From a bacterium UBP8_UBA817 (GTDB lineage: Bacteria; Margulisbacteria; Marinamargulisbacteria; SXXA01; SICP01), in the NCBI GenBank assembly GCA_945898045.1, contig CAMDGG010000002.1:83231-123337 (forward strand): 40,107 bases of DNA. The letters run 5' to 3'. The first letter of the stretch is position 1. Each line of letters begins with the position of its first letter. Both the position numbers and the translations under genes were made by a program. The notes under the pieces were generated by a model. That model was not told the DNA's origin, made no database searches, and saw only the letters and a program-made list of their open reading frames with translations. Of this stretch, positions 4,700 through 32,998 are shown piece by piece.

Positions 4700-7600
4700 C
4701 TATCCTTCTGCTTTAACAAAAAGCAAATCACCCTCCTGAACCAAAGTGCCCACAGGAATAACCAGATCCCCTTTTCCCACTTCAAAACTCGTAACCATCT
4801 TCATCGCTTCCAACTGCAAAAGACCATCTTTATAAGAAATCACTTTCCCCGCAAGCTGAGCCGCAACATGAGCAGGATTATTAGGATCTGCCTTTACATT
4901 CAGTGACTTACAAACGTCTACGACATAATCTTTTCCATCAACCAGAAACTTCACCCGCTTATGTGTATCAGATATCGTTTCAACTGAGTCCAAAACAACT
5001 TTACTTCCAAAAAAAGTATATTCTTTCCCAGGCGTTAGCCCATTAAAAAATGCATGTGTAGGCAAAGAAGATAAATCTCCAAAAGCAACACGCCCTTTCA
5101 CGAACGCCTCAAACTCCAAAGGAAACATGGTATACCCAATGCAATCTTCCTGAGAAAAAGTAATGCCAGGAAATTTCTCCTGCAACTCATGCATAACAGC
5201 CGCTTCATTATACTCAGGAATAGCCTGTCCTTTTGCATCCAAAGCGATATTCTTTGCAGTTAAAATCTGAGTGCGGCACGGCTCATAATAAATCCCCGGA
5301 TTCCCCATCTGACCGGTCAAAAACTCAATAGTAGAACCAGGAATTTTATCAGGAGAGCCCACAAGCCTTTCTACCGCCTCACGCACAGTCCACGCAGCAC
5401 CTTCTTTGCGATATCCAATTTGACATAACGCAATCGCCAAATCACCCACCGCCTTCGAAGTCGGGGTCACTTTAATAATCCCCCAAGGCCCACCAAAAAT
5501 TTGATTCGCAACCTCATAAGCAGCCAAAACATCCGCAAATAAAAAATCTTTACCAAGCTCACCGGCCTGTCCAAATAAATTCGTCAACTGTCCCCCTGGT
5601 GCTTGATGGTCATAAACAGCCTCCCCACAAACGGTGTCAAGACCCGGCACAGAAAAAGGACGATACAAACCCTGTAAATCAGAAAAATACTGATTTAACT
5701 CAAGACGAGCCTGACGAGCATTATCTGAACCCTTAAACACAGCAAGTCCACAAGACACTTCAACTTCTGACAATTTAGGCTGCGACGTAAGGCCACCAAA
5801 CGGATCCATTGCAACATCGACAATATTCGCACCCGCCTTAAACGCCGCATCATAAACCTGAGCAGCTTTACCAGACGTATCGTGCATATGGATATGAATC
5901 AAAACCTGAGGATGCTTTGCCCGAATCTGGGAAATCAACTTCGAGGCATCCTGCTCAGTCAATAATCCCGCCATATCTTTTATAGCCAAAATATGAGCCC
6001 CTTGAGAAATCAAATAATCTGCAAGACCCAAATAGTACTGCAAAGTAAATTTAGCTGGATGCGTATTGCCATAAGAATCTAGTCTTTCGCCTTCCTGAAT
6101 ACCCGTATAAGAAATAGCCGCCTCAATAACCCCACCTGCAGACCGAATCGCCTGCATACCCACAGCCAAAGACTCACGATCATTAGAAGCATCAAATACA
6201 CGAAAAATATCTACCCCTGTCTCTTTAAATTTCTTACAGGTTTCACTCAAAAACGTCGCATCATACTGCTTGTACCCAAGCCCATTACTTCCACGAAGCA
6301 ACATCTGTTTTGGCACGTTAGGCATCGCCCTATCTAGCTGTCTATTCCGCTCAAATGGACTCTCTTGTAAAAAACGATATCCCACGTCAAACGTAGCACC
6401 ACCTGCTGTTTCCATACTAAAACAAGTATCGCCCAAATACCGAGCCATATGTGGCCCCACAGCCTGCAAATCCTCTGTTCGAACCCGAGTTGCAACATAA
6501 GATTGCTGAGCATCCCGAAAAGTTGTATCCGTCACCAAACGCCTACCCGAAAACTCAGCAAATAATCTCTGACGAATAGCCTCATCCCCACCACCTTGCG
6601 CGGCTATATCCAAAATAGTCTTGCGATGATTTACTGCCGGAGAAGCGTCCTCCAAAGAAACCTTCGGCAACCTAGGCGCCTCACACGTAGAAGGCAAGGC
6701 TTGCAACTTAGCCCCAACATGACGGAAGAACCCAGAAATACCCGAAGCCAACTCAGAAAAAAATCTTGTAGCCCCTGAAACAGCCCGTGTCTCAGTAGAA
6801 ACCCTACTAGAAAATGCCGGCAAAGGAAGCGTATCTAAAAGCTCCGTATGAAACGTCCCCTCAGCAAACTTCGGATGTTCCAAAATACCCTCCAATCGCT
6901 CCAGATTTGTCCGAACCCCTCGGATGTCAATCTCTTGCAACACAGACAATGCAAGCTGACGTGCTGACTCCAAATCTTTGCCCGTCACAATCACCTTCGC
7001 AACCATAGGATCAACAGAATTTGGCAATTCCATCCCAGTTTCAACCCCGCGCTCAACACGAACCGCGTCACGAGACTGAGGAAAAATAGCCCGAGACACA
7101 AATCCAGGCTCACAAACAATGCGCATCTCCAAAGACACCCCAGATGACGCAATCTTCTCCTGAGAAATCCCCAGTTGAGCTAAAGTCATACCCTGACCAA
7201 TCCCAATCATAGCCGCAACAATATCAACACCAGCTTTTCCATCAACAGTTGTCGTTTCTTCTGTAACAGGATGCTCAACCTGAATGCGCGGATTCACTTC
7301 AATAAAATATAATTTACCATCTTCACCCAATAAAAATTCCACAGTTCCCGCACCACGATACCCACACCCATTCGCAAGCTTAAGTGCAGAGGCCTCCATT
7401 TCAGCTTTAAGCGCCGAAGAAATTGGAGGATTTCCTACCTCTATCACCTTCTGATGTCTTGATTGAGCAGAACATTCTCTCCCGCCCAAAGACACCGCCG
7501 CTGTACCATCTCCCAAAATTTGAACTTCCAGATGTCGAGGATTTTCAATAAATTTCTCAACCAACAATTTATCATTGCCATTATAAAGAATTCTGGCTTC

Positions 7601-22686: not shown

Positions 22687-24158
22687 TACTGCATCCCACC
22701 CGGCACCTGCCGATGAAAATCCGTCAATTGCTGATACGCATGCCCCACACGCAAAACTGTTTCTTCATCAAATGCCTTGCCCATAATCTGTAAGCCGATC
22801 GGCATGCCATTAGAAAATCCAACCGGTATCGACATCGCCGGCAATCCACCCATATTCGCAGGAATGGTCGCAATATCCGCCAGATACATGGCCAACGGAT
22901 TTTCACTATGTTCACCAGGCTTGAAGGCCGTCGTAGGGGTGGTCGGTGTCACAATCACATCATAGGTTTGGAAGAGTTTTTCAAAACCATTTTTAATCAA
23001 TGTACGCACTTTCTGGGCCTTCAAATAATAAGCATCATAATAACCAGAACTCAACACATAGGTCCCCAGAATAATACGGCGCTGCACTTCCGGGCCAAAC
23101 CCTTCACCACGAGACCGTGTGTACATTTCTTTCAAAGATTTAGCCTCATCACACCGATGCGTATACCGCACACCATCAAACCGTGACAAATTTGCAGAGG
23201 CTTCAGCAGGCGCCAAAATATAATACGTCGACACTGCATAATCAAACATATCAAAACTAATTTCTTCCCAATCTGCACCCTGAGCTTTCAATAAATCCAA
23301 GGCCTTCACAGTGGCTTCTCGAATATCAGGATGAACAAATTCACCCATCATTTCTTTCGGGATTCCAATCTTTAAGCCTTTCACATCACGCCCTAAACTC
23401 TTCGTAAAATCGGGAACACTCTGTTTGGATGACGTCGACTCCAACGGATCAAACCCACACAACACATTCAACAAATGCGCGACATCTTCCACCGTCCGTG
23501 CAAATGGACCAATCTGATCCAACGAAGACGCAAACGCCACCAATCCGTACCGAGAAACTCGGCCATAACTAGGCTTCATACCCACCAGCCCACAAAACGC
23601 AGCCGGCTGACGAATCGATCCGCCCGTATCCGATCCCAAAGCCACAATCGCTTCCCCCGCCGCAACCGCTGCCGCAGAGCCACCAGAAGATCCCCCAGGA
23701 ACCCGCGCCAAATCCCACGGGTTAGCCGTCGTAAAAAAAGCAGAATTTTCCGTCGAAGACCCCATCGCAAATTCATCCAAATTCGTCTTGCCCACAGGAA
23801 TCATTCCCTGCGCATTCAACCGATTAATCACCGTCGCGTCATAAGGAGAAACAAAATGCTCCAACATCTTAGACGAACACGTCGTCCGCGATCCTTTCAA
23901 ACAAATATTATCTTTAATCGCAATCGGAATCCCCGCCAAAACCGGCAGCTCTTCCCCTGCATCAAATCGCAAATCCAAAGACCTAGCGCGCTCATACGCC
24001 GTCTCTCTCAACAACGAAACATACGCTTTTACCTGAGGCTCTTTCGCATCTACTTGCGCATACACAGCATCCAAAAGATCCACACAGGTTAGTGACCTTT
24101 CTTGAAGTTTAGAATGGAGCTCTACAGAAGAGTTAAAAATAAAAGATGAATTAGGCAT
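22686..24158 (-). CDS. gatA: Asp/Glu-tRNA amidotransferase subunit A
   Basis: A 490-residue amidase-signature enzyme that releases ammonia from glutamine or asparagine for GatB. The Ser-cisSer-Lys triad is visible: Lys82 in [10 protein letters not shown], Ser157 in GGSSGGS and Ser181 in [11 protein letters not shown], followed by [18 protein letters not shown] chose the ATG at 24158, giving the usual MPNSS-like GatA start; an in-frame TTG at 24188 would run 38 bases into the toxin gene. The true start lies inside the last codons of the VapC-like gene (8-base overlap), so gatA translation probably depends on ribosomes leaving that toxin gene. Confidence 0.96.
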
Positions 24159-24537
24159 TAATTTTCTTACTATACTCCCCAAAAACACGTTGTAGTTCTT
24201 TATCTAAAGTAAGTAAAGTAAACCCACCTGAAATAGCCGACCCAGCTAAAATCGCATCTGGAAGTTTTAAACGGAATTCCCTTCTAATTGCAATAGCATG
24301 TCGCTCAATATCGGTATCAAAAGAAATAATTTTAAACTTTAAAAGAAATTGTTCTAATGAACTAAACTCTACATCATATAATTTAGGATAACTCAAGAAT
24401 TCCATCCTAGAAATAACGCTAATACCACAAGCATCCTGATCAAGATTCAATAATTTCAATAATGAAATAACTTCTTCAGAATCTCCAGCTAGGCCAATTA
24501 AAATATTGGTATCTAAAAGATATTTAATCCCACTCAT
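24151..24537 (-). CDS. VapC-like PIN-domain toxin
   Basis: A 128-residue PIN-domain ribonuclease. The acidic active-site residues are in place: Asp9 in LLDTNILIG, Glu46 in ISRMEFLSY, Asp94 in [11 protein letters not shown] and Asp112 in LLTLDKELQ. VapC toxins cleave tRNA or rRNA and are neutralised by a co-encoded antitoxin. The gene overlaps the small gene before it by 14 bases and gatA after it by 8 bases. A toxin-antitoxin pair within the gatC-gatA-gatB operon is unusual. All motifs look intact, so it is probably functional. Confidence 0.9.
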
Positions 24538-24793
24538 CTCGCATCTCTTTTTGAACGTCTAAAGGATGTTTTTTGGATAAAGAATTATCTTTCAAAAACC
24601 CACCCAGCTCCCAAAGTTTTTTTGATTTTGATGGGACAGGCATTTTAAATTCAATCCCTAGATCCGCTTGATCAATCATGACCAAAACCCGAACACGTTG
24701 TTGCTGTATAGACGAAAACGACAAAGCATCAAATAACTCAATATGCTTAGAATCAATCATTACGCCATCAGCTTCAATACCTGCGAACATCAT
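24524..24793 (-). CDS. Putative antitoxin of the VapC-like toxin
   Basis: An 89-residue protein immediately upstream of, and overlapping by 14 bases, the PIN-domain gene, the standard place for a VapB-type antitoxin. It starts at the first of two adjacent ATG codons behind a strong AGGAGGAG site. The first half has strand-like segments (GIEADGVMIDSK, QRVRVLVMIDQ). The second half is basic and then acidic-helical ([16 protein letters not shown]), typical of the toxin-binding tail. I do not see a clear AbrB or RHH DNA-binding motif, so the antitoxin family is uncertain. Confidence 0.75.
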   Translation of the reverse strand: MMFAGIEADGVMIDSKHIELFDALSFSSIQQQRVRVLVMIDQADLGIEFKMPVPSKSKKLWELGGFLKDNSLSKKHPLDVQKEMRDEWD

Positions 24794-24802
24794 AATCTCC
24801 TC

Positions 24803-25090
24803 CTACCCCGCCAAAATCTTCGGCACCATAAAAGCCCCATCTTCCCAAGCGGGAGCATTCTCTTCTAAGAGTAAATCCGTATGCGTCACAACCACATCTT
24901 CACGAAGCACAGTCCCCTCATCATGCGCATGCGCACTCGGAGAAACATCAGACAAATCCAACGCATTCAACTGATCCATATAGGTCAAAATAACCTGGAT
25001 CTGAGAAAAATAAAGGGCCTTTTTTTCAGCATCTACATCCAAATGCGCCAACTGAATTGCCCTATCAAGTTCTGAAAGTTCTAAAGCCAT
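24803..25090 (-). CDS. gatC: Asp/Glu-tRNA amidotransferase subunit C
   Basis: A 95-residue GatC, the small subunit that wraps around GatA and GatB and stabilises the complex. The family pattern is clear: LDRAIQLAHLDVDAEKKALY, ILTYMDQLNALDLSDVSP and the LREDVV segment, with a PKILAG-type end. It is the first gene of the operon and has a good promoter directly upstream but no ribosome-binding site. Nine bases separate it from the antitoxin gene. Confidence 0.94.
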   Translation of the reverse strand: MALELSELDRAIQLAHLDVDAEKKALYFSQIQVILTYMDQLNALDLSDVSPSAHAHDEGTVLREDVVVTHTDLLLEENAPAWEDGAFMVPKILAG

Positions 25091-25098
25091 AGTCGCCC

Positions 25099-25127
25099 AG
25101 TATAAAGGAATTATTTCGCTTAGTAAA
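25099..25127 (-). promoter_or_regulatory. Promoter of the gatC-TA-gatA-gatB operon, leaderless type
   Basis: On the minus strand TTTACT (25127-25122), a 17-base spacer, TATACT (25104-25099). The -10 box ends eight bases before the gatC ATG. The bases between (GGGCGACT) contain no purine-rich site at usable spacing, so a leaderless or nearly leaderless transcript is expected. Confidence 0.6.
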
Positions 25128-25155
25128 AGTTAAAAATGTCTACACAAAAGAAAAC

Positions 25156-26445
25156 CTAGTCAGCTATATCTCGCAACCTAACCAAGACGATTCTATTTCC
25201 TATGCGTTTTAAAATCGTACATTCATACTGATCAAAATAAATTTTCTCATTCACATTAGGCATATTTCCGACATGCGCAATAATCAAACCCGCCAACGTT
25301 TCATACCGTTTATCTTCGGTCACAGGACGTGGCAAATGTTTATTAATATCATGAATAGAAGCCGTGGCAATTACTTTAAACGATCCTTCTTCGATCTCAA
25401 CAACAGACGATTCTTCATCCGATTCATCCTGAATATCACCAATCAATTCTTCAAGAATGTCTTCCATAGTAACAATGCCAGAAACACCCCCGAATTCATC
25501 TAAAACCATTGCAAGATGAATATGTTTTTTCTGCAACTTCTTAAGCAACGGACCTAACTTCATGGACTCAGGAATAAATAAAGTAGGGCGAAGAATAGTC
25601 GAAATCTCAACCACTTCGTTCCGTCTTATTTTAGCCAAAATATCCCGCAAATAAATAACCCCCACTACCGCATCCAAGTTCCCGTCATAGCAAGGAATCC
25701 TAGAATACCCCTCCTCTATTACTCTATCCAAGACATCTTCACTCACATGATTAATGTCCAAAGCCACCACATCTGTTCTTGGAATCAAAATTTTACGAAC
25801 GGATTTTTTAGTAAACTCAAACGCATTTTCAATAATGGTGTAACTCGTATTTTCAATGGTACCAATATCACTTCCCCTACGCATCAGATATTTTAATTCA
25901 TCAGCACTATGAGACTCATCATGCATCGTGTTGATACCCACCAACTTCAAAATGCGATTTGCAAACCCATTAAGCAAAAAAATAAAGGGCTTAAATATCA
26001 CATAAAAGAGTCGTAGTGGAAATGAAATAAACAAACTCACTTTTAAGGAATTATTAATAGCCAGCGACTTAGGAATAAGTTCTCCAAATACAATATGTAG
26101 AACAGTAATAAACAAAAAGGCAACAGGTAATGCGATCGCATGAGCAACCTGGCTGGACACTTCAAAAGCCATCGCTTGCATACCCGCTAAAACAATTTCT
26201 GCCACCACTGTTTCGCCCACCCACCCCAAAGCCAAGCTCGCGAGTGTAATCCCAAGCTGGGTTGCAGCCAGATATCTATCTAAATCTTGAACGATGCGAT
26301 GCGCCAATTTTGCCATCAAGTTTCCAGAACGGGTACTCATCTCAATCTGAGATCCCCTTACTTTTACAATGGCAAATTCAGCCGCCACAAAAAATCCGTT
26401 TAGAAAAACCAAGAAAAACGTAAGCAACAACTCAAAAATTATCAA
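25156..26445 (-). CDS. CNNM/CorC-family membrane protein with CBS pair
   Basis: A 429-residue protein with an N-terminal CNNM (DUF21) domain of several membrane helices (FELLLTFFLVFLNGFFVAAEFA, LGITLASLALGWVGETVV, IALPVAFLFITVLHIVFGELIPKS). A Bateman module of two CBS domains follows (about 210-330; IPRTDVVALD, YSRIPCYDGNLDAVVGVIYLRDI, GGVSGIVTMEDILEELIGDI), then a C-terminal CorC_HlyC domain. The family includes Mg/Co transport-linked proteins and putative Na/Mg exchangers. The start is TTG behind AAGGAG, 11 bases after the TolC stop, so it is co-transcribed with the metal-efflux genes. That supports a role in divalent cation handling. Confidence 0.9.
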   Translation of the reverse strand: MIIFELLLTFFLVFLNGFFVAAEFAIVKVRGSQIEMSTRSGNLMAKLAHRIVQDLDRYLAATQLGITLASLALGWVGETVVAEIVLAGMQAMAFEVSSQVAHAIALPVAFLFITVLHIVFGELIPKSLAINNSLKVSLFISFPLRLFYVIFKPFIFLLNGFANRILKLVGINTMHDESHSADELKYLMRRGSDIGTIENTSYTIIENAFEFTKKSVRKILIPRTDVVALDINHVSEDVLDRVIEEGYSRIPCYDGNLDAVVGVIYLRDILAKIRRNEVVEISTILRPTLFIPESMKLGPLLKKLQKKHIHLAMVLDEFGGVSGIVTMEDILEELIGDIQDESDEESSVVEIEEGSFKVIATASIHDINKHLPRPVTEDKRYETLAGLIIAHVGNMPNVNEKIYFDQYECTILKRIGNRIVLVRLRDIAD

Positions 26446-26456
26446 AGAATAACTCC

Positions 26457-27731
26457 TTATTTCCTAGAGGGTATTAAAGCCAGTAACTCAGATTTTATTT
26501 TCTGATACGCTCTCTTTTGACGAACATAATTTTCCTGCATCTCTTGATAGACCTGAAGCGCAGTTAATACATCTGTAGAATTTTTGACACCGCGATCGTA
26601 GTCCTCAAAAACATAGTGAAGAAATGTCTTGGTTTTAGAAAGCCGGCTTTCAGAGTGATGCAGAAGATCATGAAGATGAATCAACTCCTCTTGAAACGCT
26701 TTGAGCTCCGTAAATACCAAGTGCTTTTTATACGTTAAAAACTCGGATAATGCAGCCCGTTTAATCGTCAACGACTTCAACTCAGACTGATTTTGATTGC
26801 CATCAAAAAGAAGGAATTGTGCCCGAATCCCACCCGCCACTTCAGCTCTATCCGTAACATTAGCAAAAGATCTCTCCGCCTCTGTATACAACGTATAAGT
26901 AGAAAATAGATCTATAGAAGGCTTATTTTTTCCTGTCATTTTAGCAATCTGAAACCCTAGAATCTGTTCATTAATAATTAATTCTTGGATCTCATACGCC
27001 TGATCCGAAGCAAGCACTTCTTTCAGAAAATCCTCACGATGCTCGTGCAGAAGACTCTGCTGAGTAAGAAATAGAACGGTTGTCTCCGGCAATCCTAGGA
27101 GCGCTTGTAACTTCATAACAAGAATTTTTTTCTCATGATTTAAACTTTCAACCGCTTCTTCTAATCTGCTTTTATAAATTTCAAAAGCCATCAAATCGCT
27201 TTGCGTCAATAAACCTCTCTGAAATCTACGTTTGGTAGCGTCATAACTTTTTGCATTTTGCTTCAGACTGTCTTGTGTCCGACTGATCATCTCGTCAGAA
27301 AAAACAATATCCCAATACAGCTGCTGCGCATGCATTAATTCTGTCGCATAAACTTTATGCGATTGTACCAATGCCAGGCCAACTTGAGCTTGCCGAATGG
27401 CTTCCTCTTGTTCATCTTGACCTCCACGAGAAAGATTCATAAGAAGATCGAGGCTGCCCACAGGCTGTAAACGCGCTTGGTTCATCCCCCCATTATAAAA
27501 CACTTCGCTTCCTAACGAAGCTGATATTTGCGGCAAAAATGATCTCTTAAATGAATCGGTTCTTACACGTGAGGCATCGAGCAACTGGATACTGCTCTGG
27601 ACACTGCCATTTTTTTCTCGAATCAATTGATCTAACTGGTCATAGCCTAAAGAAAACGTATTTTCTTCTGACTGCACCACACCTCCTATCAAAAAAAATA
27701 GGAGTCCCACAGACAAAATCCCTTTTTTCAT
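26457..27731 (-). CDS. TolC-family outer-membrane efflux channel
   Basis: A 424-residue outer membrane factor. It has a signal peptide (MKKGILSVGLLFFLIGGVVQS) and then the long coiled-coil helices of TolC/CusC-type trimers (ATELMHAQQLYWDIVFSDEM, LKQNAKSYDATKRRFQRGLL, TQSDLMAFEIYKSRLEEAVE) in two internal repeats. The second repeat ends in VKNSTDVLTALQVYQEMQENY, the equivalent of the first repeat's GLLTQSDLMAFEIY. It provides the exit duct for the RND pump encoded upstream in the operon. It has no lipobox, unlike many CusC proteins. It starts six bases after the previous gene. Confidence 0.9.
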   Translation of the reverse strand: MKKGILSVGLLFFLIGGVVQSEENTFSLGYDQLDQLIREKNGSVQSSIQLLDASRVRTDSFKRSFLPQISASLGSEVFYNGGMNQARLQPVGSLDLLMNLSRGGQDEQEEAIRQAQVGLALVQSHKVYATELMHAQQLYWDIVFSDEMISRTQDSLKQNAKSYDATKRRFQRGLLTQSDLMAFEIYKSRLEEAVESLNHEKKILVMKLQALLGLPETTVLFLTQQSLLHEHREDFLKEVLASDQAYEIQELIINEQILGFQIAKMTGKNKPSIDLFSTYTLYTEAERSFANVTDRAEVAGGIRAQFLLFDGNQNQSELKSLTIKRAALSEFLTYKKHLVFTELKAFQEELIHLHDLLHHSESRLSKTKTFLHYVFEDYDRGVKNSTDVLTALQVYQEMQENYVRQKRAYQKIKSELLALIPSRK

Positions 27732-27737
27732 CGTTAT

Positions 27738-28187
27738 TTAGTCTAAATGATCAAAAGCAATCAAAAGTGTTTTTTTACCCTCTGTGAGAAACACATCGAT
27801 ATTATAGGGCTTGCGTAGCGTACACTTAGGAAGCACGCCTATAAAAGAATCCCCAGAAAAAGTTAAAGAAAATTCTTTTTTATCCCACCCTTTTTTAGTT
27901 TTAAATTCTAAAATAGCTTTCCCTTTTTTTTCAAATTTTGATAAAGAGAACGCTTGCATGTTTGGTGTGTAGAGGTACACCCGAACACCCCCCTCTTCAG
28001 AACGAAGCAATTCCCCTTTATAAATCAAAGGTGCGTGACGTCCCAATTTGGCATGGCTCGCTTGAATGGCAGGCGCAACAACACCCCCATGTTTAGCAGA
28101 ATCTGTAATCAGGGGACCATGACCCTCATCATGTGCAATAGCCAACGTACTCAATACTAAAACCAACCCTAAAATTAAAGTTTTCAT
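27738..28187 (-). CDS. Small periplasmic His-rich protein of the metal-efflux operon
   Basis: A 149-residue protein with a signal peptide (TLILGLVLVLSTLAIA) and a mature N-terminus starting HDEGHG, then KHGGVVAPA. This resembles the metal-binding N-terminal extension found before membrane-fusion proteins of heavy-metal pumps (the HGG motif followed by VYLY strands: RVYLYTPNMQAFSL). The sequence stops where such a protein would go on to its lipoyl and hairpin domains. The ATG at 28187 overlaps the pump gene's stop (ATGA) and follows AGGAG. It may be a metallochaperone, or a stand-in for the missing adaptor. Confidence 0.75.
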   Translation of the reverse strand: MKTLILGLVLVLSTLAIAHDEGHGPLITDSAKHGGVVAPAIQASHAKLGRHAPLIYKGELLRSEEGGVRVYLYTPNMQAFSLSKFEKKGKAILEFKTKKGWDKKEFSLTFSGDSFIGVLPKCTLRKPYNIDVFLTEGKKTLLIAFDHLD

Positions 28188-31100
28188 TTCCAATCTCCTG
28201 TTTGTGTTTGTGAATTTCCTGTTACTTTACTTAAATTTTCTATTGCCTTACGACCGAATCGATAAAAAATAGTCGGCGTCACAATAATATCGAGCAATGT
28301 GGATGACAATAAACCTCCCACAATCACCACCGCCACCGGATACAAAATCTCTTTACCCGGCTCTCCTTTGGATAAAAGAAGCGGCACCAATGCCAATGCC
28401 GCGGTAAATGCGGTCATCAATACAGGCACCAACCGCTCTTGAGCACCTCGCAATACAAATTCCTTGGTAAACGTTTCGCCTTCATATTTAACCAGATGAA
28501 TATAATGACTAATCATCATAATGCCATTACGACTTGCAATGCCACACAGCGTAATAAAAGCGATCAACGTAGCCACCGAAAACTGCCGCTCCGTAATATA
28601 GATTGCGACAATACTGCCAATCAAAGCCAGTGGCACATTGAGCATAATTTGCAAGGTTAATGCCCAAGACTTAAAATGCATATAAAGAAGCCCCATGATA
28701 CCCAAAAGAGACAAACTACCAAAAATAAAAATCAACCGAGTGGCATGTTGCTGACTTTTGAATTGACCCTCCAATAAAATATAATACCCCTTCGGCAATT
28801 TCACAGGGCCCTGCAATTTCTTTTCAATTTCGGCCACAACACCTCCCAAATCCCGCCCTTGAGTATTGGCAGAAATAACAATTCTTCGTTGCATATTTTC
28901 TCGGTTAATCATGTTCGGACCGCTACTAGGATAAATATCGGCAATATCTTTAACCTGAACCGTACGCCCATTGGGTAATGTTTTCACCAAAACGTTGCCA
29001 ATCGCATCTGGACTATTTCGAGAAGGCCCATCCAACCGCATGACAATGTCATACAAGCGCTGCTTTTCTATAAATTGAGAAACCGTTTCGCCATTGAGAT
29101 AACCTTCCAAATCCTTAACAAGTTCACCTGGACGAAGCCCCAGAGGCACCACCGCTTCCCGATCAATAGCAATTTTGAGTTGCGGAATCGGAATACTAGG
29201 CTCCAAAGACAGATCCACGATACCCGGAATATCTTTCAGTGCCGATTCAACCTCAACACCCAATCGCCTCAATTCTGAAAGGTCCGAACCAAAAATTTTA
29301 ACGGCGATTTGGGCCCTGACGCCAGACAATAAATGATCCAAACGGTGACTAATGGGCTGTCCAATATTTACATAGACATTGCCACATTTTTCCACATTTG
29401 CTCGCAACTCATTTAATACCACTTCTCTTGGGCGCCCCCCTTCCTTGAAATCAACATCAATTTCGCTCCAGTGCACCCCTTCCGCATGCTCATCCATTTC
29501 TGCCCTGCCTGTTCGTCGAACAGTCGATTTAACTTCCGGAACTGCTAGCATTGCAGCTTCAATAGCACTCCCCAATCTATCTGAAGCATCAAGGCTAATC
29601 CCAGGACCGGCAGCCACCCCCACCGTTGCCGTACCTTCATTAAAAGGCGGTAAAAAATTCTTACCCATTTGAGGAATCAAACATAAACTCAACATCACAA
29701 GAACCAGACAGGCCATCATGATTTTATAGGGATGCTCTACGGTCACAATAAGCAGTCGCTTTTGCATAGATTTCAAAAAGGTAACCAAGCGATTATCACC
29801 TTCTTTACGCGTAAGCATAGGGCCTTTCAACAAATAGGAACAAAGCACAGGCGTAACAGTAAGCGAAACAACCAGAGACGCAATCAGCGAAATAATATAA
29901 GCCAACCCCAACGGTTTAAACAAACGGCCCTCAATACCTCCTAAAAAGAATAAAGGCAGAAAAACCAAAACAACCGTAACCGTTGAAAAAATAATAGAGT
30001 TCCTCACCTCAGAAGACGCTTCATAAATAACGCGAAGACGCCCTTTTGGAGACCCATTAGCGCTATTTTCACGCAACCTCCGAAATACATTTTCCATGTC
30101 TACAATCGCGTCATCCACCAGCTCACCAATCGCAATGGCAAAACCTCCCAATGTCATCGTATTGATCGTCAGGTTAAATATTTTGAATACAATCAAAGCA
30201 AGTAGAAGCGACAACGGTATGGTTACAAGCGTAATCACCGTACTGCGAACAGAAAAAAGAAAAATAAAAACAATAATCGCAACCATCAGCGCCCCATCTC
30301 TCAAGGCTTGCATCACATTATGATTAGACGCTTCGATAAAACGAGATTGTTTAAACAGATCCGATTTCAACACGACACCTTTCGGAAGAGTTGGCGCCAC
30401 TTCTTTGAGCATTTTTTCAATCTGTTGGGTCAATTCAATCGTATTTGAATTTGGTTGCTTTTGAATCGTCATAACAACAGACGGCTGCCCATTAATACTT
30501 GCGTCGCCCCGTTTTGTTTTGGCGCCAATATCTACTTTTGCCACGTCTTTTACAAGAACTGGTTTTCCCAAATGGAGCCCCACCACAGAATTTTCAATGT
30601 CCTCCAGAGACGTCACCCTTCCCATAGGTCGAATCAAATATTCTTGCCCCTCAATATCAATAAACCCACCCGTCGTATTATTACTAATCTCCGACAAAGC
30701 ATGCTTACAATCCTCCATAGAAATCCCTTTTTTCTGCAAAAGATCACTCGAAACCAAGATGCGATATTGCTTAACCGCCCCACCCATCACCACAACCTGA
30801 CTAATACCCGGAATACCCATCAGACGAGGACGAAGCGTCCAATCGGCAAGCGTACGTAATTCCATAGACGACACACTACGATCTGGACTCATCAATCCTA
30901 CAAACTGAATCTCTCCCATAATAGACGTAATAGGCCCCATCATAGGACGCATACCCTCAGGCAAACGGTCTCCTAATAATTGAATCCGTTCAGCCACAAA
31001 TTGACGGTTACGATAAATATCCGTTCCCCACTCAAATTCCACATGCACAATCGAGATACCCACACCACTCGAAGACCGGATACGGATAGCCCCAGGCAAC

Positions 31101-31324
31101 CCATTCATAACCGTCTCAATAGGCAGACTCACCAACGTTTCTACTTCTTCAGGAGCCAGGCCATGCGCTTCTGTCAAAATAGCCACCGTCGGACGATTCA
31201 AATCAGGAAAAACATCAACAGGTAAATGAGACCCCACCCAAAAACCATAGGCCATCAAACCAATAGCAATCAGCAAAACAAGCAAACGATGCTTTAGAGA
31301 ATAGCGTATTAACTTATTTAACAC
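28184..31324 (-). CDS. Heavy-metal efflux RND pump, CzcA/CusA family
   Basis: A 1046-residue inner-membrane RND transporter of the HME class with twelve expected membrane helices and two large periplasmic loops. Marks are the opening RYSLKHRLLVLLIAIGLMAYG, LPVDVFPDLNRPTVAILTEA, and the TM4 proton-relay motif AIGELVDDAIVDMENVFRR, whose two Asp and one Glu are the family's charged signature. GGIEGRLFKPLG and CGIASRNGIMMISHYIHL (TM10-11) follow. The substrate is a metal ion. The exact HME subtype (Cu/Ag, Co/Zn/Cd or Ni) cannot be settled by eye. The start is GTG behind AAGGAG. No membrane-fusion (CusB/CzcB) gene lies nearby, although the TolC partner does. Confidence 0.93.
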   Translation of the reverse strand: MLNKLIRYSLKHRLLVLLIAIGLMAYGFWVGSHLPVDVFPDLNRPTVAILTEAHGLAPEEVETLVSLPIETVMNGLPGAIRIRSSSGVGISIVHVEFEWGTDIYRNRQFVAERIQLLGDRLPEGMRPMMGPITSIMGEIQFVGLMSPDRSVSSMELRTLADWTLRPRLMGIPGISQVVVMGGAVKQYRILVSSDLLQKKGISMEDCKHALSEISNNTTGGFIDIEGQEYLIRPMGRVTSLEDIENSVVGLHLGKPVLVKDVAKVDIGAKTKRGDASINGQPSVVMTIQKQPNSNTIELTQQIEKMLKEVAPTLPKGVVLKSDLFKQSRFIEASNHNVMQALRDGALMVAIIVFIFLFSVRSTVITLVTIPLSLLLALIVFKIFNLTINTMTLGGFAIAIGELVDDAIVDMENVFRRLRENSANGSPKGRLRVIYEASSEVRNSIIFSTVTVVLVFLPLFFLGGIEGRLFKPLGLAYIISLIASLVVSLTVTPVLCSYLLKGPMLTRKEGDNRLVTFLKSMQKRLLIVTVEHPYKIMMACLVLVMLSLCLIPQMGKNFLPPFNEGTATVGVAAGPGISLDASDRLGSAIEAAMLAVPEVKSTVRRTGRAEMDEHAEGVHWSEIDVDFKEGGRPREVVLNELRANVEKCGNVYVNIGQPISHRLDHLLSGVRAQIAVKIFGSDLSELRRLGVEVESALKDIPGIVDLSLEPSIPIPQLKIAIDREAVVPLGLRPGELVKDLEGYLNGETVSQFIEKQRLYDIVMRLDGPSRNSPDAIGNVLVKTLPNGRTVQVKDIADIYPSSGPNMINRENMQRRIVISANTQGRDLGGVVAEIEKKLQGPVKLPKGYYILLEGQFKSQQHATRLIFIFGSLSLLGIMGLLYMHFKSWALTLQIMLNVPLALIGSIVAIYITERQFSVATLIAFITLCGIASRNGIMMISHYIHLVKYEGETFTKEFVLRGAQERLVPVLMTAFTAALALVPLLLSKGEPGKEILYPVAVVIVGGLLSSTLLDIIVTPTIFYRFGRKAIENLSKVTGNSQTQTGDWK

Positions 31325-31338
31325 ATAAAAACTCCTTT

Positions 31339-31369
31339 CTTATGAAATAAGACTTAATTAGAATTAAGT
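31339..31369 (-). promoter_or_regulatory. Two adjacent AT-rich palindromes before the RND pump gene
   Basis: Position 31352-31369 reads ACTTAATTAGAATTAAGT, a perfect 8-base-arm palindrome around AG. Directly next to it, 31339-31351 is CTTATGAAATAAG (5-base arms around GAA). They lie between the His-rich membrane gene stop and the pump's AAGGAG site. AT-rich dyads like this are common as operators for metal regulators of the Fur, MntR or ArsR kinds, but no regulator gene is nearby. An mRNA hairpin limiting pump translation is another reading. Confidence 0.45.
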
Positions 31370-31764
31370 TAAATCGAAAAGCTAAACTTAGGAGGCCGAA
31401 ATAGTAAAAATAAATGTAATCTCACGGGAATTAAAAAAGAAAACGTGCGTATCCTACTTACAAAAATTCGGGTAATCAAGATAATTTCACTCAAGAAAAT
31501 AGCGCCCAAAAACCCCATAACACACAACATCCTATGCGCATGTGAATGCGTATGTTCAGTCCCAGAAGCGACATCATAATGGGTATCAATATGCGCTTTT
31601 TGGGAAAAAGAATGTTCAATATCGTGATGGAAATCACGTGAGCCACCCTGACCATGATGTGCTGTACAACATTCCGTAATATAAGAATTTGAAAAGAAAA
31701 GACTAAGAGCACACAACACTATCAACACAACACTTAAAAAACTTTTTAAAAACCAACACTTCAT
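31369..31764 (-). CDS. His-rich two-helix membrane protein, first gene of metal-efflux operon
   Basis: A 131-residue protein with an N-terminal hydrophobic helix (LKSFLSVVLIVLCALSLFFS), a loop packed with histidines (HHGQGGSRDFHHDIEH, HTHSHAHRM) and two adjacent cysteines (ECCTAHH), then a second helix (LCVMGFLGAIFLSEIILI) and a basic, hydrophobic tail ending RPPKFSF. The loop probably faces the periplasm and binds metal. I chose the second of two close ATGs (31764), as a good promoter has its -10 seven bases before it. Other possible starts are ATG 31770 and a GTG at 31833 inside the ATPase gene. No family name is recognised. Confidence 0.7.
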   Translation of the reverse strand: MKCWFLKSFLSVVLIVLCALSLFFSNSYITECCTAHHGQGGSRDFHHDIEHSFSQKAHIDTHYDVASGTEHTHSHAHRMLCVMGFLGAIFLSEIILITRIFVSRIRTFSFLIPVRLHLFLLFRPPKFSFSI

Positions 31765-31771
31765 AGGCATC

Positions 31772-31800
31772 AAATTAGCATTTACCCACCAAAGTGTAAA
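31772..31800 (-). promoter_or_regulatory. Promoter of the metal-efflux operon, leaderless type
   Basis: On the minus strand TTTACA (31800-31795), 17-base spacer and TAATTT (31777-31772). The -10 box ends seven bases before the ATG at 31764. It falls between the ATPase stop and the His-rich gene, so the metal operon can be transcribed on its own. Confidence 0.5.
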
Positions 31801-31802
31801 AT

Positions 31803-32930
31803 CTAGGAAGGATAACCAAATCCTGACAACCACTTCCCTGCCTGACGTATCTCAATACCCTGTGGCGTCATAAAATCTTGATTCAATTTCCCAACTAGCT
31901 GCACCATCTGACAGTCTTGCAAGTATTTTCGAAAATAATGAAAGGCAGAACTAGGTAATTGATCAGACCATTTTGCCTCAATCATGACCTTAGGTTTACC
32001 TTCAATAGAAACCAGAAAATCAATTTCCTTACCCTCTTTATTACGCAAGTAAGAAAGCACAACCCGCAACCCCTTGGCATCTTCTAAAAATTGACATTCT
32101 TTAAGCAAACATAGCGCCACCATATTTTCAAATCGTGCACCAGGCTCATCTTTTACATGCCCCGTATCAAAAAAATAATATTTAGGGCTTTTTAAAATGG
32201 CCCGAGCAATATTACGGCTATGCGGAGAAACCCGAAAAATAACAAATAACTCTTCCAATAAATTAAGCCATCGCTTAATCGTCGTCGCATCTCGGCCCAA
32301 GTCTCTGGCCAAGCTATCATACGATATTGGAGATCCTACCATCGTTTGCAGAAGACCCAGCAACGTTTCTATCCCTTGAATATCCCGAATAGAGTTTAGA
32401 TCTAATAAATCCTGACGCAAAATAATGTCTAAATGAGATCGTCTCCATTTACGTGCAAAATCAATCTCCCCAGACAAAAAAGGCTCGGGGAATCCCCCCA
32501 AACTCATCAACCGCTCCTGAATAACATCTGGAGAAAAATGCCCCTGCAACTCTTTAAAATCAAGCGGATGAAGTCGATAAGAAAAAAATCGCCCCGCCAG
32601 AGAATCGCCAACCTTACGATAGGTATTCAGCTTTGCGCTTCCCGTAACAAGTAGACGTGGACGAATACCCTCCACATCGTAAACACCCTTCAACCATTGC
32701 TTCCAATTTTTAAGCTTGTGAAGTTCATCCAGAACCAACAAATCAGTCTTTCGATCCCAATTTTTCTCTAAAATTTGCGAACGATGTTCAATATAGTCAT
32801 AGTTCAAATAACTAAACTCAGAAAACAGTGATTTAGACAAAGTCGTTTTGCCCACTTGTCGAGGTCCCGACAACAAGACAATCTTTTTCTCCAAATCTCT
32901 CTTTACGATCTCTCGAAGCTGCCTATCCAT
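31803..32930 (-). CDS. DUF4143-family AAA ATPase 2
   Basis: A 375-residue AAA_14 plus DUF4143 protein. Walker A is GPRQVGKT (22-29), Walker B LLVLDELHKL, and the sensor-like VTGSAKLN follows with GRFFSYRLHPLDFKEL. A winged-helix-like segment (SLARDLGRDATTIKRWLNLL) lies in the middle. The C-terminal part keeps the nuclease-like signature: KEIDFLV then VMIEAKWSD (E-x-D...E-x-K). So unlike copy 1 it may retain a catalytic centre. The ATG at 32930 has a TTGACT promoter overlapping a 30-base palindrome. Physiological role of the family is unknown. Confidence 0.85.
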   Translation of the reverse strand: MDRQLREIVKRDLEKKIVLLSGPRQVGKTTLSKSLFSEFSYLNYDYIEHRSQILEKNWDRKTDLLVLDELHKLKNWKQWLKGVYDVEGIRPRLLVTGSAKLNTYRKVGDSLAGRFFSYRLHPLDFKELQGHFSPDVIQERLMSLGGFPEPFLSGEIDFARKWRRSHLDIILRQDLLDLNSIRDIQGIETLLGLLQTMVGSPISYDSLARDLGRDATTIKRWLNLLEELFVIFRVSPHSRNIARAILKSPKYYFFDTGHVKDEPGARFENMVALCLLKECQFLEDAKGLRVVLSYLRNKEGKEIDFLVSIEGKPKVMIEAKWSDQLPSSAFHYFRKYLQDCQMVQLVGKLNQDFMTPQGIEIRQAGKWLSGFGYPS

Positions 32931-32936
32931 CCGACT

Positions 32937-32978
32937 ATTCTGGCACCTATCCCAGAAAAGTCAAGACTATTCCGGGAT
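32937..32978 (-). promoter_or_regulatory. Promoter and overlapping palindrome before DUF4143 ATPase 2
   Basis: On the minus strand TTGACT (32964-32959), 16-base spacer, CAGAAT (32942-32937), six bases before the ATG. The -35 box sits inside an imperfect palindrome at 32949-32978: arms ATCCCAGAAAAGTC and GACTATTCCGGGAT around AA, matching at 12 of 14 positions. There is no T-run, so it is a better operator than terminator candidate. GACTATTC is repeated at 32933-32940. Confidence 0.5.
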
Positions 32979-32998
32979 ACACACTACATTAGTCAGAT

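Follow-up and report, generated by a model that had tools for sequence, protein, structure and literature searches.

A putative vapBC-type toxin-antitoxin pair between gatC and gatA, probably a recent horizontal gain and not a dedicated GatCAB regulator

Between gatC and gatA of the window (the whole stretch of 40,107 nucleotides that was analysed) there are two additional genes, which form a putative type II toxin-antitoxin module with a VapC-type PIN toxin. Judged from the sequence, this is probably a recent horizontal gain of a vapBC-type pair that has become chained to the gat genes, and that would live there as a selfish or addictive passenger and not as a dedicated regulator of GatCAB. 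It looks like a selfish passenger because relatives lack the pair at gat, and because pairs of the same kind adjoin unrelated genes elsewhere.

All genes of the locus are on the minus strand, in the order gatC, antitoxin, PIN toxin, gatA and gatB. The operon starts with gatC (25090-24803, 95 aa; Pfam GatC with E 7.6e-15, and TIGR00135 with 59.9 bits, above the cut-off). Its stop codon is followed after 9 nt by the antitoxin gene (24793-24524, 89 aa), which is recognised by its position, its Shine-Dalgarno site, a dual-coded overlap with the toxin and a C-terminal motif of the family. The toxin gene (24537-24151, 128 aa) matches Pfam PIN with E 1.9e-18 and the PDB entry 7by2, Ribonuclease VapC, with E 2.2e-9. 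Downstream are gatA (24158-22686, 490 aa; TIGR00132 with 632.5 bits) and gatB (22686-21229, 485 aa; Pfam GatB_N and GatB_Yqey), which overlap by 1 nt. Antitoxin and toxin share 14 nt (24524-24537), read as the antitoxin end RDEWD plus stop in one frame and as the toxin start MSGIK in the other, while the toxin stop and the gatA start share the 8 nt ATGCCTAA (24151-24158). An earlier note on this DNA, made from the sequence, had given this gene order, the coordinates and both overlaps, and all of these were correct on re-checking, as was its statement that the toxin has four acidic residues. These are D9, E46, D94 and D112, and they are invariant across 33 aligned sequences.

The match of the toxin to PF01850 has 67.6 bits, against a cut-off of 23.6. 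Named NCBIfam VapC equivalogs (e.g. the tRNA(fMet)-specific endonuclease VapC) are not reached, with 26.9, 23.7 and 18.2 bits where the cut-offs are 140, 143 and 80; since these scores are far too low, the protein is best described as a PIN toxin of the VapC type that belongs to none of the named equivalogs. For the antitoxin there is no match above cut-off in Pfam or NCBIfam, including the AbrB, RHH and Phd-like domains, and its structure model is of low confidence (pLDDT 57) and too poor for classification. Its C-terminal motif is common to the partners of related toxins; in these partner genes it takes the form Q..xRxEW with a DP-like step upstream, and the N-terminal parts are variable. 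The pair is thus like the VapBC type II family in its PIN domain, the four conserved acids, the small upstream antitoxin gene and the overlap between the genes, and unlike it in that the antitoxin fits no curated family. According to a review (PMC7167474), toxin-antitoxin pairs on chromosomes may become inactive by drift, and it could be imagined that this pair, too, is decayed or domesticated, non-toxic, and kept merely as part of the transcript. This is unlikely, as neither frame is interrupted, the four acids are all present, and the overlap motif and the C-terminal motif of the antitoxin have been kept.

It is likely that the pair is co-expressed with the gat genes through a shared transcript and chained translation. 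In a consensus scan, a candidate operon promoter (TTTACT-17-TATACT, 25099-25127, minus strand) lies just 5' of gatC, and this is the single sigma-70-like match on the minus strand from the region upstream of gatC to the start of gatA, in a scan that overall did not exceed chance (7 matches vs 8.2 expected from shuffles). A TATACT is found at the equivalent place 5' of gatC in two relatives, G001 and G002. The same scan, on the minus strand and up to the gatA start, gave no match for the antitoxin-toxin pair alone, in agreement with the lack of a separate promoter reported earlier; outside gatC, the pair has no room for a promoter of its own. By eye, promoter-like sequence is visible 5' of the antitoxin in three other pairs described below (at fabD, at lpxB and in L042). 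The ribosome sites are of unequal quality. The antitoxin has a strong Shine-Dalgarno sequence, GGAGGAG, with a duplex energy of -10.2 kcal/mol, and that of the toxin is weak (-2.9 kcal/mol). The Shine-Dalgarno sequence of gatA is 17-20 nt upstream of the ATG, which is too distant for normal use, and coupling to the toxin stop is therefore likely. The earlier note had proposed a polycistronic coupling to gat by which GatCAB might be regulated: the coupling itself holds up as likely, given the short gap after gatC, the two overlaps, the lack of an internal promoter match and the poor toxin and gatA Shine-Dalgarno sequences, and the regulation is not supported.

The pair is not a conserved component of the gat operon, as it is absent from this place in a genome of the same genus and in all other operons examined. 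In the same-genus genome (G001), where GatC and GatA are 95% identical to those of the window, the site is empty and gatA starts 2 nt after gatC. The gatC-gatA gap was measured with automatically chosen gene starts in the 26 phylum operons that allow it, G001 included, and ranges from -11 to 108 nt, versus 644 nt in the window; no insert between the two genes was seen in any other phylum operon examined. The antitoxin is absent from all 73 other phylum genomes searched, where partial assemblies could hide copies elsewhere. PIN genes number six in the source genome, and none was detected in G001 (both assemblies are 83-84% complete). A comparison of the gatC-gatA spacing in relatives had been suggested as a way to tell a conserved pair from a recent insertion, and with the congener and the other phylum operons all without the pair, it indicates a recent gain.

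An assembly error is formally conceivable, because the source genome is a draft of 28 contigs that is 84% complete, and an antitoxin unique to this genome among those searched in the phylum would fit an artefact or a chimeric contig. Such an error is nevertheless very unlikely, because the locus is inside a 123-kb contig with flanks collinear with G001. All frames are open with neat overlaps, and the 5' end of gatA, although diverged, still encodes a recognisable GatA N-terminus, which also argues against it. The direction of change is inferred by parsimony to be a gain here and not a loss in G001. It could be that G001 is itself a recombinant in which a replacement removed the pair, but the pair is also missing from G002 and from all other operons.

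The origin of the pair can be approached through composition and through the neighbouring gene. The GC content is 0.37 for the antitoxin and 0.31 for the toxin, versus 0.48 for gatA and 0.45 for gatC. Most of gatA, as well as gatC, is about as similar to G001 as the neighbouring genes are. The first ~20-24 codons of gatA are a divergence outlier: here, 20-codon windows have a nucleotide identity to G001 of 0.52-0.56, and beyond the junction region the windows are at 0.77 or more. When only codons for the same amino acid are compared with G001, synonymous change is found in 11 of 13 in codons 2-20 and in 116 of 447 elsewhere in gatA (P 2e-5). The counterpart in G001 of the diverged segment is IFKSAVELHGLLQSRSLTC. 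Near-saturated synonymous change at the start of gatA is explained by recombination with a donor gatA and only poorly by ordinary divergence, and these first ~20-24 codons were probably imported. The module would then have entered by a recombination that replaced the 5' end of gatA as well, and in the donor a gatA would already have followed the toxin. When the phylum was searched for another copy of this 5' end or for its donor, the window itself and short chance matches were all that came up, and no donor genome with the pair adjoining gatA was found. On the other side of gatC there is another difference from G001: ~7.9 kb (25118-32998) lie between a pirin gene and gatC, encoding CorC/CNNM and TolC-like proteins, an RND efflux pump, an AAA_14/DUF4143 ATPase and others, where the pirin-gatC distance in G001 is 21 nt. 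This block is a second insertion beside gatC, or was lost in G001.

Relatives of the toxin are found in other bacteria, with 57 among the matches listed in a scan of one genome per species. The best have 40-45% identity and come from Polaromonas, Nitrosomonas, Methylovulum, Comamonas and others, with lower values in Dolichospermum and further groups. No gat genes are near these 57 in the flanking DNA inspected, of which some stretches are short; a gat-linked relative of the pair may exist in an unsampled genome. Eight plasmid records contain toxin relatives, with up to 44% identity, and the antitoxin had no match on plasmids. None of 17 pattern matches places a toxin relative on a viral contig. 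The window pair resembles an uncurated VapC subfamily (Methylovulum, Nitrosomonas, Polaromonas, Dolichospermum and others) in the toxin start M[SN]GIKYLLDTN, in the 14-nt dual-coded overlap and in the antitoxin end RxEW[DNH]; the N-terminal part of the antitoxin differs among members, and none of the other members has gat genes nearby. An overlap of 14 nt between the antitoxin end and the toxin start is present in 36 of 37 related loci, mostly around ATGARTGGNATTAA, whose two reading frames give RxEW[HND] plus stop and M[SN]GIK. Because it is family-wide, this overlap is a constrained trait of the subfamily, not one adapted to the gat operon, and the special coupling that had been read into it falls away.

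These observations also bear on the regulatory circuit that the earlier note had in mind, in which toxin and antitoxin levels, or cleavage of a tRNA by the toxin, would tune GatCAB as an adaptive feedback. A shared transcript and chained overlaps, both likely from the sequence, would suit such a circuit, as would the targets of known VapC toxins, which often cut tRNA (initiator tRNA, PMC4105405; tRNA-Ser, PMC10945364). However, the pair is not conserved even within the genus, the listed toxin relatives have no gat linkage, the overlap is family-wide, and other pairs in the source genome adjoin lpxB, fabD and rlmL. With an empty site in the congener, relatives without a gat link and other PIN pairs of the genome beside unrelated genes, the pair is very unlikely to be a regulator of GatCAB, and a physiological circuit with GatCAB is speculative. 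The proposal that its placement reflects a link to tRNA supply fares no better, as the congener has the operon without the insert and relatives of the pair are found elsewhere without gat, which the earlier note itself had named as evidence that would speak against it. In a literature search, no titles or abstracts were found that link toxin-antitoxin pairs to gatCAB or gatA.

Further PIN pairs of the source genome have comparable neighbours. One (L004 1238-1866) overlaps lpxB by 4 nt, another (L005 1471-2147) ends 16 nt before fabD, and another (L003 1265-1878) stops 9 nt short of an RlmL-type methyltransferase gene. G001 is without these three pairs at the matching sites, and between the matching flanks it has ~24 nt at the rlmL site and ~86 nt at the fabD site. 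At the lpxB site, G001 (L126 626-1460) has ~830 nt of other sequence with short ORFs only. A small gene and a MazF-like gene (L002 395-987, by eye) stand beside another, convergent PIN pair of the source genome. Overall, 4 of the 6 PIN pairs have a conserved gene in the same direction no more than 17 nt from their end; against local packing (9 of 28 junctions) this is not a significant enrichment (P 0.09), and targeting to housekeeping genes is therefore not claimed. The closest relative of the toxin in the phylum (41% identity; L042 1501-1872, genome G040) shares 8 nt with xseA, the gene for the exonuclease VII large subunit, just as many as toxin and gatA share in the window. Two Bacteroidetes genomes have related pairs directly 5' of a ccmB-like gene (L071 and L099, near 5001-5378).

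Such positions raise the idea that the pair is anchored to an essential gene: the toxin frame would be needed to translate the next gene, and loss or frameshift of the toxin would be punished. The poorly placed Shine-Dalgarno sequence of gatA and its overlap with the toxin stop are consistent with this, as are the count of four in six and the L042 overlap with xseA, but the count is not significant, a nearby downstream gene in the same direction is lacking for most toxin relatives elsewhere, and a single copy allows no selection test. Anchoring is therefore rather improbable. The same low probability applies to its mechanistic form, in which the toxin frame serves as a translation leader for gatA, so that toxin loss lowers GatA and the pair is retained separately from post-segregational killing.

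Under the preferred reading, a recently gained passenger, the pair would be transcribed from the gatC promoter. Translation of the antitoxin would start at a strong ribosome site of its own, that of the toxin would be coupled through the 14-nt overlap of its family, and that of gatA would depend on reinitiation or coupling where the toxin frame stops. The antitoxin would neutralise the toxin through its conserved C-terminal segment. Other VapC proteins cut tRNA or rRNA, and the free toxin would cut RNA, most likely of these two kinds. The module would persist as a selfish or addictive passenger to which the essential operon lends steady expression, and it is possible that its position in the gat operon stabilises it. 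Similar cases are relA-mazEF-mazG and dinB-yafNO-yafP in E. coli, where a pair is also located between cistrons and is absent in strains with an intact operon; according to the review that describes them (PMC7167474), the operons of strains that lack the pair are undisturbed, and a functional link was not found. Their toxin families are different, and in the window, unlike in these cases, the neighbour is an operon for a tRNA amidotransferase, and the toxin gene overlaps the one that follows.

How toxin-antitoxin modules integrate is described as unknown in the same review (PMC7167474). At the gat locus, where a close relative has an empty site, a module appears to have entered an essential operon without a visible functional link, and the case is a clean one. 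One route of integration, suggested by the foreign look of the first gatA codons, is homologous recombination through the gene downstream, and if the module is anchored, the replaced 5' end of gatA would mean that such modules move by homologous recombination and take the beginning of the following gene with them. If the toxin frame is needed for the translation of GatA, this would be a testable means by which selfish modules come to resist loss.
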